DNA from: Alcanivorax sp.
GTDB lineage: Bacteria > Pseudomonadota > Gammaproteobacteria > Pseudomonadales > Alcanivoracaceae
DNA length: 34,858 nt
Reading direction: 5' to 3'
NCBI RefSeq assembly: GCF_014762765.1
Contig: NZ_JABURH010000089.1
Span: forward strand, 1-34,858
The translations under genes and the position numbers were made by a program. Positions 1,192-34,784 of the stretch are shown piece by piece. Below the pieces are notes generated by a model. The model ran no database searches and was not told where the DNA came from. It saw nothing but the letters and a program-made list of their open reading frames with translations. Positions within the stretch are counted from its first letter, which is position 1, and each line of letters begins with the position of its first letter.

Positions 1192-1261
1192 AACGCGGGC
1201 AAGGCACTATCCGATCAGCACGGCCCAGCCCGCGTTGCAGCTTGTGGCTTGAAGCTTGTTG
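1192..1261 (-). repeat. Heptad array plus GC-rich stem behind the ccsA-like gene
   Basis: Read on the minus strand, the ccsA-like stop codon is followed after five bases by 7-bp units CAACAAG, CTTCAAG, CCACAAG and CTGCAAC. The last unit merges into a stem of nine bases, AACGCGGGC (1192-1200) with GCCCGCGTT (1228-1236). In the minus direction the stem exits into GTTTTTATAAAA, so it can act as a terminator for ccsA. The same layout with nearly identical units sits behind ffh. Confidence 0.75.
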
Positions 1262-1266
1262 CTGCC

Positions 1267-2273: not shown

Positions 2274-3689
2274 ATGTTCGAGAATCTCACCGACCGGTTG
2301 GGATCGTCGCTTAAAAACCTGGCAGGTCAGGGCGCCCTGACCGAAGACAATATCCGCGACACCCTGCGCGAAGTGCGCAAGGCACTGCTGGAGGCCGATG
2401 TGGCCCTGCCGGTAGTGAAAGAGTTTGTCGAACAGGTAAAGGAAAAGGCCCTTGGCCAGGAAGTCCTGAAGAGCCTGAACCCCGGCCAGGCGTTCGTGAA
2501 GATCGTCAATGACGAGCTGGTCCATACCATGGGCGACGCCAACGACGCCCTTAACCTGGCCACCAAGCCGCCGGCCATTATCCTGATGGCGGGTTTGCAG
2601 GGTGCCGGTAAGACCACCTCCGTGGCCAAGCTCGCCCGTTTCCTTCAGGAGCGCGAGAAGAAGAAGGTCATGGTGGTATCCGCCGACGTGTATCGCCCGG
2701 CGGCGATCGAGCAGTTGAAAACCCTGGCGGGGGAGGTGGAGACCAACTTCTTCCCCTCCACCGGCGATCAGGACCCGGTGGACATCGCCAACGGCGCCCT
2801 GGAAGAAGCCCGTCGTCGCTACATGGATGTGTTGATCGTCGATACCGCCGGTCGTTTGCATGTCGATGAAGACATGATGAGCGAGATCAAGCGCCTGCAC
2901 GGGGCCATCAGCCCGGTGGAAACCCTGTTCGTGGTGGACGCCATGACCGGTCAGGATGCCGCCAATACCGCCCAGGCCTTCAATGAAGCCCTGCCGCTCA
3001 CCGGTGTGATTCTGACCAAGGCGGATGGTGATTCTCGCGGTGGTGCCGCTCTCTCGGTTCGCCACCTTACCGGCAAGCCGATCAAGTTTATCGGCATGGG
3101 CGAGAAGACCGATGCCCTGGAGCCGTTCCACCCGGACCGTATCGCCAGCCGGATTCTCGGCATGGGCGACGTGCTGTCCCTGGTGGAAGAAGCCGAGCGC
3201 AAGCTGGACAAGTCCAAGGCCGAGAAAATTGCCAAGAAGTTCAAGAAAGGCAAGGCCATGGACTTCGAGGACCTCAAGGACCAGTTTCAGCAGATGCGCA
3301 ACATGGGGGGCATGGCGGGCCTGCTCGACAAGCTGCCCGGTATGGGCGGCATGATGCAGGCGGCCCAGGACCCGGCGGCCATGAAGCAGATGAAACACAT
3401 GGAAGCGCTGATCGACTCCATGACGCCGAAAGAGCGCCGTAACCCGGATCTGATCAAGGGGTCGCGCAAGAAGCGCATTGCCGCCGGCGCCGGCCTGGAT
3501 ATCCCGGCCCTGAACCGTCTGATGAAACAGCAGAAGATGATGGCCAAGATGATGAAGAAGATGCGCACCAAGGGTGGCATGAAGAACATGATGCGGGGCA
3601 TGGAAGGCATGATGGGGGGCAACGGCGGTCCCGGTGGCCCTGGCGGAATGGGTGGCATGGGCGGCCCGGGCGGTATGCCGCCTATGTAG
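2274..3689 (+). CDS. ffh: Signal recognition particle protein Ffh (SRP54 GTPase)
   Basis: Ffh binds 4.5S RNA and signal sequences of nascent inner-membrane proteins and hands them to FtsY. The 471-residue protein has the complete architecture. The N domain contains ALLEADVALPVVKEF. The G domain has the P-loop GLQGAGKTT (about residue 107), DVYRPAAIEQL, DTAGRLHVD and TKADGDSRGGAAL. The methionine-rich M domain begins near residue 300. The C-terminus ends in a Gly/Met-rich tail (GGPGGMGG repeats), common in this family. The ATG at 2274 follows TTTGGAGGTAACCCC, a strong ribosome binding site. A longer in-frame reading from 2181 would begin upstream of the promoter -10 box and is rejected. The gene precedes the rpsP operon, as in Pseudomonas. 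A strong stem and T-run close it. Confidence 0.98.
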   Translation: MFENLTDRLGSSLKNLAGQGALTEDNIRDTLREVRKALLEADVALPVVKEFVEQVKEKALGQEVLKSLNPGQAFVKIVNDELVHTMGDANDALNLATKPPAIILMAGLQGAGKTTSVAKLARFLQEREKKKVMVVSADVYRPAAIEQLKTLAGEVETNFFPSTGDQDPVDIANGALEEARRRYMDVLIVDTAGRLHVDEDMMSEIKRLHGAISPVETLFVVDAMTGQDAANTAQAFNEALPLTGVILTKADGDSRGGAALSVRHLTGKPIKFIGMGEKTDALEPFHPDRIASRILGMGDVLSLVEEAERKLDKSKAEKIAKKFKKGKAMDFEDLKDQFQQMRNMGGMAGLLDKLPGMGGMMQAAQDPAAMKQMKHMEALIDSMTPKERRNPDLIKGSRKKRIAAGAGLDIPALNRLMKQQKMMAKMMKKMRTKGGMKNMMRGMEGMMGGNGGPGGPGGMGGMGGPGGMPPM

Positions 3690-3693
3690 AAAG

Positions 3694-3770
3694 CTGCAAG
3701 CTTCAAGCCGCAAGCTGCAACGCGGGCAGAGTGGGTGGTTAAGCCGCCTCTCTGCCCGCGTTGCGTTTTT
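3694..3770 (+). terminator. ffh terminator with a leading heptad array
   Basis: Four bases after the ffh stop begin four 7-bp units (CTGCAAG, CTTCAAG, CCGCAAG, CTGCAAC). The last one runs into a perfect 13-bp stem, AACGCGGGCAGAG at 3719-3731 with its complement at 3750-3762, followed by GCGTTTTT. This is a good intrinsic terminator shape. The array is nearly the same as that behind the ccsA-like gene at 1192-1261. Confidence 0.85.
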
Positions 3771-12262: not shown

Positions 12263-12270
12263 AATACCGA

Positions 12271-12298
12271 GTCTGACGTCCGACGTCAGACGTCTGAC
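12271..12298 (+). repeat. GTCNGAC heptad array between hom and thrC
   Basis: Four exact 7-bp units begin eight bases after the hom stop: GTCTGAC, GTCCGAC, GTCAGAC and GTCTGAC. Units one and three are reverse complements, so the RNA can fold with a 7-bp stem and a 7-base loop equal to one unit. At DNA level 12271-12280 and 12282-12291 are a perfect inverted repeat. Confidence 0.85.
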
Positions 12299-12320
12299 GC
12301 TTTATGAGAGAGATTTGAAC

Positions 12321-18938: not shown

Positions 18939-19373
18939 ATGACCGCAGTTCAGTATTTTCAGCCCGGTAATCACAGACAGGATGACAGCGAGCTTCCAGA
19001 TCTGGATTGCCGGGAAAATATTGATGCCATGGTGCATGGCTTCTATCGCCGGTTGCTGGATGACCCGGTAATGTCGCCCATGTTCCTGGATGTGGCTGCT
19101 ATCAATCTGCAGCAGCATCTCCCGACTATCTGCCAATACTGGTACAAGATGCTGTTGGGTGAGCGCGACTACCAGCGACACATGATGGCCAAACACCGTG
19201 CCCTGGATGATAAGCAGCCCCTGACCGGTGAGCACCATGAGCGCTGGCTGCAGCATTTCATGAACAATCTTGAAGGCCGTTTCGCCGGGCCCTGTACGGA
19301 TCGGGCGCGGCATATTGCCTTTCGGGTGATGGATAATCTGTATGCGCAGTTGAGCGCGAGGCGGGGTGAATAG
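18939..19373 (+). CDS. Group III truncated haemoglobin
   Basis: A 144-residue haem protein of the trHbIII (Ctb-like) group, small globins linked to oxygen or nitrosative chemistry. After a variable 20-residue N-terminus it has IDAMVHGFYRRLLDDPVMSPMF, then LQQHLPTICQYWYKMLLGERDYQ, the proximal histidine H86 in MMAKHRALDD, and LTGEHHERWLQHF with the tryptophan typical of the group. Length and motif spacing fit the family. ATG at 18939 is preceded by GAAGCGAAGTA. It lies 73 bp behind the DUF962 gene and may share its transcript. Its TAG stop is the first part of a heptad array. Confidence 0.88.
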   Translation: MTAVQYFQPGNHRQDDSELPDLDCRENIDAMVHGFYRRLLDDPVMSPMFLDVAAINLQQHLPTICQYWYKMLLGERDYQRHMMAKHRALDDKQPLTGEHHERWLQHFMNNLEGRFAGPCTDRARHIAFRVMDNLYAQLSARRGE

Positions 19374-19664
19374 TTGCAAGTTTCAAGAGGCAAGTTGCAA
19401 CGCGGTTGATGTCCGTTGCCAAACGGAGAGCAGGGTGGCCGCGCTGCAATGCAGATAAAAACTTCTCTACGAAGCCACTGTAGGAGCGCCGCTTGAGGCG
19501 CGAACAGCCAGGGTAATTCGCGCCTCAAGCGGCGCTCCTACATCCGTGTTTCCTGAAAACGTCTGAACGCGGCCCTCGTCCTTGCCCCTAGGGAAAGCCG
19601 CAACCGCGTTGCAACTTGCCTCTTGCCTCTTGCCTCTTGCAACTTGAAACTTGAAACTTGAAAC
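19373..19664. repeat. Composite repeat: inverted heptad arrays around a REP hairpin
   Basis: The array begins at the last base of the globin stop. Four units (GTTGCAA, GTTTCAA, GAGGCAA, GTTGCAA) lead into CGCGGTT (19401-19407). The mirror image is AACCGCG (19602-19608) followed by eight units (TTGCAAC, TTGCCTC three times, TTGCAAC, TTGAAAC three times) that end three bases before the stop of the convergent CoA-transferase gene. Between the two lies modular repeat R3. The whole 290-bp gap between the two genes is therefore one nested inverted structure. Confidence 0.88.
19462..19541. repeat. GTAGGAGC-type repeat R3 with a perfect 25-bp stem
   Basis: Positions 19480-19504 are the exact reverse complement of 19517-19541, with a 12-base loop. 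The arms begin GTAGGAGCGCCGCTTGAGG. The flank CTACGAAGCCACTGTAGGAG matches the left end of copies R1 and R5. This is the most compact and best conserved hairpin of the family here and could act as a bidirectional transcription or decay barrier between the convergent genes. Confidence 0.9.
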
Positions 19665-19667
19665 TGA

Positions 19668-20876
19668 CTACCCGATCACCCCGTCCGCCTTCAGCGCCGC
19701 AAACTCCTCGTCACTGAGCCCCAATTCCTCGCGTAATACCGCGTCGTTATGACTGCCCACCTCACCGCCGGGCCAGCGGGTTTCGCCAGGGGTGTCTGCC
19801 AGTCGTGGAGTGATGGCGGGTACCTTGAGCGGCTTGCCGTTGATTTCCACCTGCTGGAACAGACCCCGGGCCTGGAAATGGGGGTCGTTAAACATGTCGG
19901 CCACGGAGTAGATGGGGCCGGCGGGGACCCGGGCCTTTTCCAGCAGAGTCAGTACTTGCTCGCTGGGCAGACTGCGACACCAACTGTCCAGGGCGGTGTC
20001 GATCTCTGCCTCGTTTTTCACCCGCCCGGCGTTGCTGGCCATGGCCGGGTTGTCGGCCATGTCCGGGCGCCCGGCGGTGGTCATCAGACGTTTGAAGATG
20101 GAATCACCGTTGCCGCCGATCACCACGAACTTGCCGTCCGCACAGCGGTAGGTATTGGTGGGGACGATGCCGGTGACAGTGGAGCCCGCCGGTTCACGAA
20201 TCACTCCGGCGCCATCGAATTCCGGGATCACGCCCTCCAGCAGGTTGAAGACCGATTCATACAGGGCCACATCCACCACCTGGCCCTTGTCGCTCTTTTG
20301 CCGCTCGAACAGGGCCAGCAGAATTCCCAGGGCCGCGTGCAGGCCGGCAATGGTATCGCCCAGGGACAGGTTGGGGCGCACCGGGCGCTCGCCGGGGAAG
20401 CCATTCACATAACGCAGCCCACCGATGCCCTCGCAGACCGACGCATAGCCGGGTTTGCTGGCGTAGGGGCCGGTCTGGCCATAGCCGGAGATACGGGTGT
20501 AGATCAGCCCGGGATTGTCCTCGGCGAAGCTTTCCGGTCCCAGGCCCCAGTTTTCCATGGTGCCGGGGCGGAAGTTCTCTATTACCACGTCGGCGTTACC
20601 CATCAGTTTGCGTACCAGCGCCTTGCCCTGATCGGATTTCAGATCCAGGGTCACCGATTTCTTGTTGCGACCCAGGCTGCGCCACCAGTAGGAGGTGCCG
20701 TCTTCATCCAGCTTGCGCCAGCCACGAATGGGGTCGCCACCGGGTGGCTCCACCTTCACCACATCGGCACCGAAATAGGCCAGCAGGGTGCCGGTAAAGG
20801 GACCGGCCAGCAGCTGGCCCAGCTCGATAACACGGACACCGTCAAGGGGCAGGCGGCGGGATGAGAGTTCGGGCAT
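19668..20876 (-). CDS. Family III (CaiB/BaiF) CoA-transferase
   Basis: Moves CoA between carboxylic acids. The 402-residue protein has the family N-terminus LDGVRVIELGQLLAGPFTGTLLAYFGADVVKVEPP, then SLGRNKKSVTLDLKS, ADVVIENFRPGTMENWGLG and the C-terminal GPIYSVADMFNDPHFQARGLF. In formyl-CoA transferase the catalytic aspartate sits in a PG-F-D-type segment. Here that segment reads PGYASVCEGIGGLRYVNG, with alanine at the aspartate position and a nearby glutamate, as in a large subgroup that includes succinyl-CoA-dependent transferases. Donor and acceptor are unknown. ATG at 20874-20876 has ACGGAGACCCC upstream; the 26-codon longer reading is rejected. Confidence 0.9.
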   Translation of the reverse strand: MPELSSRRLPLDGVRVIELGQLLAGPFTGTLLAYFGADVVKVEPPGGDPIRGWRKLDEDGTSYWWRSLGRNKKSVTLDLKSDQGKALVRKLMGNADVVIENFRPGTMENWGLGPESFAEDNPGLIYTRISGYGQTGPYASKPGYASVCEGIGGLRYVNGFPGERPVRPNLSLGDTIAGLHAALGILLALFERQKSDKGQVVDVALYESVFNLLEGVIPEFDGAGVIREPAGSTVTGIVPTNTYRCADGKFVVIGGNGDSIFKRLMTTAGRPDMADNPAMASNAGRVKNEAEIDTALDSWCRSLPSEQVLTLLEKARVPAGPIYSVADMFNDPHFQARGLFQQVEINGKPLKVPAITPRLADTPGETRWPGGEVGSHNDAVLREELGLSDEEFAALKADGVIG

Positions 20877-25940: not shown

Positions 25941-25949
25941 TTCGGTCGC

Positions 25950-26024
25950 GTTGAAAGTTCAAAGTTGAAAGTGAAAAAGCGCGGGCGAGTCTGGTGTTTA
26001 AACCTGCCAGGCTGTGCCCGCGTT
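25950..26024 (+). repeat. Heptad array plus GC-rich stem behind the DegP-like gene
   Basis: Nine bases after the stop begin four units GTTGAAA, GTTCAAA, GTTGAAA and GTGAAAA. They lead into CGCGGGC (25980-25986), which pairs with GCCCGCG (26016-26022), followed by TTTCATTTCT. An inner CTGG/CCAG pair lies in the loop. The layout equals that behind the ccsA-like gene and ffh and sits between convergent genes. Confidence 0.75.
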
Positions 26025-34669: not shown

Positions 34670-34739
34670 GAGCTACGAGCTACGAGCTACGAGCTACGAG
34701 CTACGAGCTACGAGCTACGAGCTACGAGCTACGAGCTAC
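34670..34739. repeat. Perfect tandem array of ten GAGCTAC units
   Basis: Ten uninterrupted exact copies of the 7-bp unit GAGCTAC fill 34670-34739. Each unit contains the palindrome AGCT. It is the purest member of the heptad-phased arrays in this window and is expected to be prone to slippage. Confidence 0.97.
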
Positions 34740-34784
34740 GCTCGTTGGATAGGGAAAGACTGGAAAGTTCCTCGTAGTCCGCAA

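Follow-up and report, generated by a model that had tools for sequence, protein, structure and literature searches.

Heptad arrays in the window

The stretch of DNA analysed here (the window, 34,858 nucleotides) is contig C105 of the Alcanivorax genome G000 (3.52 Mb in 211 contigs), and its globin shares 93% identity with the globin of Alcanivorax jadensis. An earlier, sequence-only reading had placed tandem arrays of 7-bp units (heptads) behind six of its genes (ccsA-like, ffh, hom, globin, CoA-transferase and DegP-like), and all six arrays were found. The sites are located between protein-coding ORFs and not in rRNA helices, and within the window there is no Rfam match above gathering score and no match to the PF05635 profile. 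The features are as follows, in plus-strand numbering.

1194..1263, minus strand: ccsA-like half-element; CAAG heptads at 1235-1263 and stem CGCGGGC..GCCCGCG at 1194-1234, with cores 1194-1200 and 1228-1234
3693..3760, plus strand: ffh half-element; four CAAG heptads at 3693-3720 (scored run 3686-3724) and stem CGCGGGC (3721-3727) / GCCCGCG (3754-3760)
12267..12306, plus strand: array in the hom-thrC gap; GTCNGAC heptads, without CGCG stem
19372..19400, plus strand: left arm of the globin/CoA-transferase element; GTTGCAA GTTTCAA GAGGCAA GTTGCAA, overlapping the globin TAG stop
19401..19443, plus strand: left inner stem of the same element; CGCGG (19401) / CCGCG (19439)
19480..19541, unstranded: GTAG-type REP pair inside the same element; GTAGGAGCGCCGC .. 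GCGGCGCTCCTAC
19568..19608, minus strand: right inner stem of the same element; CGCGG (19568) / CCGCG (19604)
19609..19665, minus strand: right arm of the same element; eight CAAG heptads (expanded), scored run 19604-19673
25949..26022, plus strand: DegP-like half-element; GTTNAAA heptads (run 25948-25979) and stem CGCGGGC..GCCCGCG, with cores 25980-25986 and 26016-26022
34670..34772, plus strand: probable PF05635 cassette remnant; (GAGCTAC)x10 arm at 34670-34739 plus leader ..GGAAAGTTCC

Four of the six sets, rather than five, are NNNCAAG, the DegP-like set being NNNAAAG and the hom set GTCNGAC. The CGCGGGC stems reported at ccsA-like, ffh and DegP-like are indeed present; the mirrored site has CGCGG/CCGCG on each side, and hom has no CGCG stem. 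At ffh the first heptad begins three bases past the TAG stop, and the right arm at 19609-19665 stops two bases short of the CoA-transferase stop codon (19668-19670). The hom-thrC gap also carries period-7 runs with varying units in other Alcanivorax (L062, L063, L064 and L065).

A GTAG-type palindrome pair occupies 19480-19541, between the two globin/CoA-transferase arrays (19400-19604), and a similar REP pair is found at the orthologous globin site in L060-L062. These window REPs are a separate element from the heptad arrays. Elsewhere in G000, GTAG-type REP pairs at L154 1300-1366 and 1902-1970 flank the Y1_Tnp gene, which looks like their RAYT.

The list of six arrays was incomplete, as a seventh, (GAGCTAC)x10 at 34670-34739, had been overlooked; it does not lie behind a stop codon. 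Window positions 34676-34772 are 92.9% identical over 98 aligned bp (array and leader) to L431 557-654. In G013 that stretch sits 45-142 bp upstream of a PF05635 match, and judged by this similarity the segment 34670-34772 is probably the remnant of a PF05635 cassette.

Period-7 arrays exceed chance

A sample of 394 kb of G000 (eight contigs chosen for length and hits, not a random draw) was scanned for runs in which 16 or more of 21 positions match at a given lag. It gave 48 intergenic period-7 runs, compared with a mean of 0.05 and a maximum of 1 in 20 dinucleotide shuffles, and intergenic runs number zero at periods 5, 6 and 8 and two at period 9. When runs at all positions are counted there are 60 at lag 7, 7 at lag 6, 8 at lag 9, 2 at lag 12, 23 at lag 14 and 8 at lag 15, with none at lags 4, 5, 8, 10, 11 and 13; only period 7 and its multiple 14 are strongly enriched. 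The midpoint lies outside predicted genes in 59 of the 60 period-7 runs. Over the genome as a whole CAAGNNNCAAGNNNCAAG has 176 matches, versus 1 for the reversed pattern.

Element anatomy

At a relaxed threshold the same sample yields 35 inverted pairs of arrays that share units, two or three of which (for example C50:14052) may be chance, and 33 unpaired arrays. An element consists of four heptads (28 bp), an interior and four inverted heptads; four units is the commonest length of a paired arm (45 of 70), and the unpaired arrays have no four-unit peak (8 of 33). The usual Alcanivorax interior runs CGCG-N33-CCGCG, short loop, CGCGG-N33-CGCG, with N33 parts that appear unrelated across most loci. 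It measures 92-109 bp in 20 of 31 rows, which come from G000 contigs, six G000 loci and three sites in G006 and include a few nested ones. Non-coding interiors are about 95 bp long and, by eye, unlike the coding cassettes, two of which measure about 370 and 430 bp. The window sites at ffh, ccsA-like and DegP-like are single-armed half-elements.

Several locus-specific units, or dialects, coexist in G000 (GYTNCAA, GTTNAAA, TTGATAA and GTCNGAC). Units vary from locus to locus, but both arms of one element use one dialect. The complementarity of an arm to its own partner is only slightly above that to other arms of the same dialect (743 versus 706.6, reached in 3 of 2000 permutations), the TTGATAA dialect showing no excess, and the idea that the two arms coevolve through exact pairing was dropped because this excess is weak. 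By eye, several arms in G006 1000001-1200000 (L087-L096) permute GTTAACA, GTTAATA, GTGAACA and GTGAATA, each used once.

Position relative to genes

The positions of 32 two-armed elements with both neighbours known were compared with the calls of a crude codon-score ORF caller in the 394-kb sample. Of the 43 arm edges on the side of a stop codon, 37 overlap that codon (by up to 24 bp) or come to within 4 bp of it; of the 21 on the side of a start, 3 do so. Thirteen elements lie in convergent gaps, 17 in tandem and 2 in divergent ones; for background, the whole sample has 38, 104 and 50 gaps of these kinds that measure 100 bp or more. The proposal that the mirrored design at 19373-19664 serves both convergent genes is not borne out: the mirrored layout is the element's own, and in tandem gaps the second arm points to the start of the next gene. 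The broader claim, that this is a dispersed unit whose order and orientation are fixed, as opposed to a random microsatellite, is supported.

Comparison of L117 with L118-L120 by eye indicates that arms provide the icd stop codon and that HemH ends in different residues at places where an arm borders its gene; elements thus seem to edit gene ends.

Dispersal and turnover among genomes

CAAG matches occur in all 16 other Alcanivorax genomes searched, from 9 in G005 (all at its one cassette) to 507 in G011, counts for which the reversed-pattern control is not clean in some genomes (109 control matches versus 40 in G014, and 60, 101 and 60 control matches in G008, G011 and G016). Such matches are patchy in the rest of the family and sporadic in the class. 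The reversed control GAACNNNGAACNNNGAAC is itself abundant in G140, G372 and G180 (353, 196 and 93 matches), so another dialect may exist there.

One G008 interior has 29 matches in G008 (mostly to its central half), 1-5 in each of seven other genomes and none in nine. By eye, this interior is common to copies with AAAG arms and to one with CAAG arms; arms and interiors therefore seem to reassort, with both arms still agreeing. No target-site duplication is obvious by eye at the G008 copies.

At one point between algC and argB, read by eye, nine genomes carry elements of differing dialect and interior, G015 has a degenerate element, G001 and G002 have collapsed remains, and five genomes have nothing recognisable. 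The gap behind argB (also by eye) holds several different elements, or instead a GTAG REP pair in G001, G003 and G010. Between hemH and icd there are both arms in G000 and one arm of another dialect in G001, G003 and G006. The globin element of the window is present with other units in L060-L062 and absent from L063-L065.

Three further observations concern arrays elsewhere. L001 and L003 (G000 contigs C8 and C9) have a near-alike element and flanks, and are perhaps strain variants within the assembly. Arrays near L063 4038-8138 have TGAYGCC- and ACGC-type units, as in the PF05635 cassettes L365 and L378 of the same genome. Viral contigs (L233-L312) carry long one-way CAAG arrays in or beside apparent marine phage genes, some of which seem to share a flanking gene; these viral carriers were set aside, since no inward arm pairs within 400 bp occur among their 272 arms (80 loci of at least 120 stretches) and most of ten stretches read are long one-way arrays.

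Long versions encode a four-helix-bundle protein

Long versions of the element enclose a four-helix-bundle gene, at G005 C29 with CAAG arms and at G000 C32:9399-9854 with TTGATAA arms. The G000 C32 protein matches PF05635 (E 1.3e-25) and TIGR02436 (E 3.1e-29), and the G005 C29 protein matches PDB 2gsc, XCC0516 (E 3e-14). PF05635 has 46 matches in 16 of the 17 Alcanivorax genomes and none in 14 control genomes; G015, the sole Alcanivorax genome without it, has 10, 2 and 0 matches to three array patterns. PF05635 is probably related to the Avd protein of diversity-generating retroelements.

Inverted same-dialect lag-7 arrays flank PF05635 at 27 of 30 Alcanivorax loci (30 of the 46 matches) and, in the class, at 20 of 29 loci (from the best-scoring 30, one being without a recognised ORF); no PF05635 locus of genus or class has flanking inverted arrays at lags 5, 6, 8, 9 or 10. 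Separate scoring of the same best-scoring 30 gave arrays on both sides at 20 (19 inverted), on one side at 9 and on neither at 1. The lag-7 scoring of inverted flanking arrays gave 0 of 28 and 3 of 36 for neighbouring ORFs in genus and class, 0 of 17 for hemH and 7 of 17 for argB. The argB figure arises because two elements flank that gene; their arms point outward by sequence, and the scoring counted inverted arrays whichever way they point. An array on at least one side was seen at 22 of 28 and 28 of 36 neighbouring ORFs, because these adjoin the cassette.

On plasmids, period-7 arrays, counted without regard to inversion, lie on both sides of PF05635 at 12 of 16 named loci (16 of 21 records) and on any side at 14 of 16; lag 6 gives 2 both-sided loci and lag 8 gives 3. 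The hosts include Nostoc, Anabaena, Calothrix, Aulosira, Pseudanabaena, Geminocystis, Azospirillum and Riemerella. Class-wide, of the 24 genomes that have 10 or more CAAG matches, 15 carry PF05635 (a hand count, one of the 15 scoring below the family cut-off), versus 61 of 344 others (Fisher 4e-6). Nine of the 24 CAAG-rich genomes, G343 with its 108 CAAG matches among them, have no PF05635 match, and among the cassettes read in G000, G006, G008 and G011 none has CAAG arms, though CAAG matches are many there.

The protein gene also turns up in other settings. On the cyanobacterial plasmids L436 and L440 it lies between cas6 and cas4 in a CRISPR-cas operon, and on L450 between cas10 and cmr3, where no period-7 array was detected. 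The 1.5-Mb genome G380 has eleven weak PF05635 matches, seven of equal score and frame length.

Arm dialect tracks the protein phylogeny

In a phylogeny of 40 Alcanivorax proteins, 14 dialect labels need 13 changes, which is the minimum (shuffled mean 30.7, with 0 of 200 shuffles as low); the labels were set by hand from the arms, L369 and L378 have imperfect ORF or arm detection, and near-copies favour clustering of any label. G000, G003 and G006 are close by hemH and argB, and their TTGATAA, TTGACAG and GTTAACA cassettes belong to one protein group; close relatives thus have different dialects within that group, and arms track the protein rather than the species. The two arms match in type in each of the 16 cassettes of this group.

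The dialect of the REKSRAF-type cassette also partly predicts the dispersed matches (log-ratio p 0.0055, with genomes that are not independent, as also in the next two comparisons). A-type matches number 11-107 in the ten genomes with an A-type cassette versus 0-14 in the six with a B-type cassette (p 0.0024), and B-type matches 0-263 versus 3-377 (p 0.073, not significant alone). G001, G009 and G016 have an A-type cassette and mainly B matches, and G013 has a B-type cassette and few B matches. A strict one-to-one match between cassette and dispersed dialect was therefore abandoned, as it fails in several genomes.

Predicted RNA pairing and rRNA intervening sequences

Folding was predicted for 54 strands of 27 elements, those of the 35 pairs with an interior of 60-210 bp. 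All 54 strands form at least 15 arm-arm pairs (median 28), and the median z is -7.0, with 50 of 54 strands below -3.

The intervening sequence (IVS) described in the accessible text of PMC4990558 has a 28-bp terminal stem and is excised by RNase III; upstream of its S23p gene it carries three tandem heptamers and a fourth, degenerate one. Four heptads are 28 bp, equal to that stem. The likeness to the Alcanivorax elements thus covers the 28-bp terminal inverted-repeat stem, heptamers by the gene, a PF05635-type protein and a hairpin RNA, predicted in the case of the Alcanivorax elements; unlike the IVS of that account, the Alcanivorax elements lie between protein genes, are often non-coding, occur in dozens of copies per genome and have many dialects. 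Of the features that define an IVS, the folded paired elements have, by prediction, the terminal inverted-repeat stem with heptamers, and the window elements have neither the rRNA-helix location nor PF05635 coding; the full-length relatives do encode S23p/IVP (PF05635). The portion of PMC4990558 consulted gives no agreed origin or function for intervening sequences.

Relation to known repeat families

The earlier statement that there is no named family for these arrays does not hold: similar heptad arrays have been described in Xanthomonas and Nostoc (PMC4692102), and full-length versions carry the 23S intervening-sequence protein. In the available part of that paper the heptamers GGGAATC and GGGGA(C/T)T are studied as G-quadruplex repeats, with 70 and 75 convergent pairs, without function, in two Xanthomonas genomes. 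As here, four units are preferred and (in Xanthomonas) convergent pairs occur; most arrays lie less than 50 bp from a stop when on the coding strand, or upstream of an ORF when on the non-coding strand. Unlike them, the G000 dialects seen are without G-tracts (no runs of three G occur in the GYTNCAA, TTGATAA, GTTNAAA and GTCNGAC units of window and sample), yet their paired arms peak at four units, which weakens G-quadruplex formation as a general cause of the four-unit preference. Some class loci do carry G-rich units. The text of PMC4692102 as available makes no mention of intervening, helix bundle, S23 or XCC0516.

The TAACTGA repeats of Beggiatoaceae (PMC4679880, in part) are likewise dispersed intergenic heptads by start and stop codons for which mobility was raised as a possibility; they differ in having one dialect, a position mostly before start codons and a proposed translational role. 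The octa- and heptanucleotide sites of Geobacter metallireducens (PMC2700814, in part) are also tandem short units paired on opposite strands at variable distance; in contrast, they are proposed IHF/HU sites, and the likeness drawn here is one of description. Titles and abstract openings among the open-access matches listed contain no report of dispersed intergenic heptad arrays linked to PF05635, and a search of that literature with the array strings returned no related paper. Integron attC sites were suggested by the AAC/GTT ends and set aside, as by eye these ends misfit the attC motif RYYYAAC..GTTRRRY.

Interpretation

The elements have one anatomy, they are dispersed, their arms are co-inherited with the protein and, by prediction, their arms pair in RNA. 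We consider it likely that the arrays form the arms at either end of the members of a small dispersed element family whose full-length members encode the PF05635/TIGR02436 four-helix-bundle intervening-sequence protein. The window elements are then non-coding or half relatives of coding members, plus one probable cassette remnant. Such elements are probably selfish DNA, those of the window being non-coding relatives of IVS-type mobile elements. The protein may recognise its own heptad dialect in the arms and could help related non-coding elements to spread in trans. In RNA the arms are predicted to pair into a long stem, which RNase III could excise, by analogy with the intervening sequences of rRNA. 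Insertions would survive where cutting or interruption is harmless, chiefly directly behind stops, and this harmlessness would explain their position at stop codons. As regards MITEs, the arms of the dispersed elements are common to PF05635 cassettes, and a role of the protein as transposase is putative at most.

It seems unlikely that stems and arrays evolved together at gene ends as terminators or barriers at mRNA 3' ends. Adjacency to stop codons and rarity in divergent gaps would agree with such a role, as would the GC stems, which are followed by a T-run at ccsA-like and ffh and weakly at DegP-like, and the terminator-like core common to G000, G001, G003 and G006 at hemH-icd. The case for termination as a dedicated function, which had been suggested from the sequence, is weak, however: by eye, an algC-argB element has a -10-like GTTAGAAT on one side and the ribosome-binding site of argB on the other, which puts it in the probable leader of argB and makes an obligate terminator unlikely. 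The swapping of different elements or a GTAG REP pair at one site, the spread of related copies in G008 and an arm dialect that tracks a protein gene also speak against it.

Less probable again is a role of the arrays as DNA sites bound by a nucleoid protein or a regulator (gyrase, IHF/HU or ribbon-helix-helix), with the PF05635 gene a passenger inserted there. Palindrome-like units at 7-bp phase would suit this, as would the IHF/HU sites proposed for the paired tandem repeats of Geobacter in the available part of PMC2700814. So would G343, a genome of another gammaproteobacterial family whose arms are also CAAG heptads, where the inner gap is 90-102 bp in 12 and 13-44 bp in 5 of the 17 inverted pairs among the matches listed. 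Ten of the 12 long interiors there start CTG or CAG, and they appear unrelated to Alcanivorax interiors. Against protein sites stand the inheritance of the arms, which follows the protein instead of the species, and the many dialects that coexist in one genome.

REP, BIME and REPIN families consist of mirrored half-elements and are intergenic and mosaic, and the Alcanivorax elements resemble them in all three respects and in the absence of a visible target duplication. Mobilisation by a Y1 (RAYT) transposase is nevertheless very improbable, as no GTAG tag is seen by eye at the heptad hairpins and no dedicated Y1 transposase was found in G000, where the sole Y1_Tnp match (C51; assembly 93.7% complete) is flanked by GTAG REPs and not heptads. 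RAYT mobilisation was rejected on this last ground, Y1_Tnp being the only transposase family searched.

Neutral heptameric microsatellites born of polymerase slippage can be dismissed almost entirely, in spite of pure expansions such as (GAGCTAC)x10 in the window and the long CTACAAG runs in G006 and G001, given that only period 7 (with 14) is strongly enriched, that paired arms peak at four units and form inverted same-dialect pairs, and that identical adjacent units in 30 CAAG arrays number 4 versus 10.5 expected of 58 (P 0.0075), the opposite of slippage.

Returning to arms of a family with a PF05635 protein, one may tentatively go a step further, to an idea that we hold to be possible but somewhat short of an even chance. 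Heptad-armed elements would be one widespread mobile superfamily with the four-helix-bundle protein, recognising the arm dialect, as its sole dedicated factor. The rRNA intervening sequences, the Xanthomonas, Nostoc and Alcanivorax repeats and the "four helix bundle protein" genes would be its forms, and it would spread without a known transposase, perhaps via an excised hairpin RNA or DNA.

PMC4990558, as far as its text was available, notes heptamers beside one S23p gene and calls the origin and function of intervening sequences and of their protein unresolved, as PMC4692102, likewise seen in part, does the purpose of bacterial heptameric repeats. The strong, dialect-specific link between heptads and the PF05635 protein makes both questions testable. 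It may bring several so far unexplained repeat families of bacteria under one heading, and it gives the PF05635 protein a testable job.
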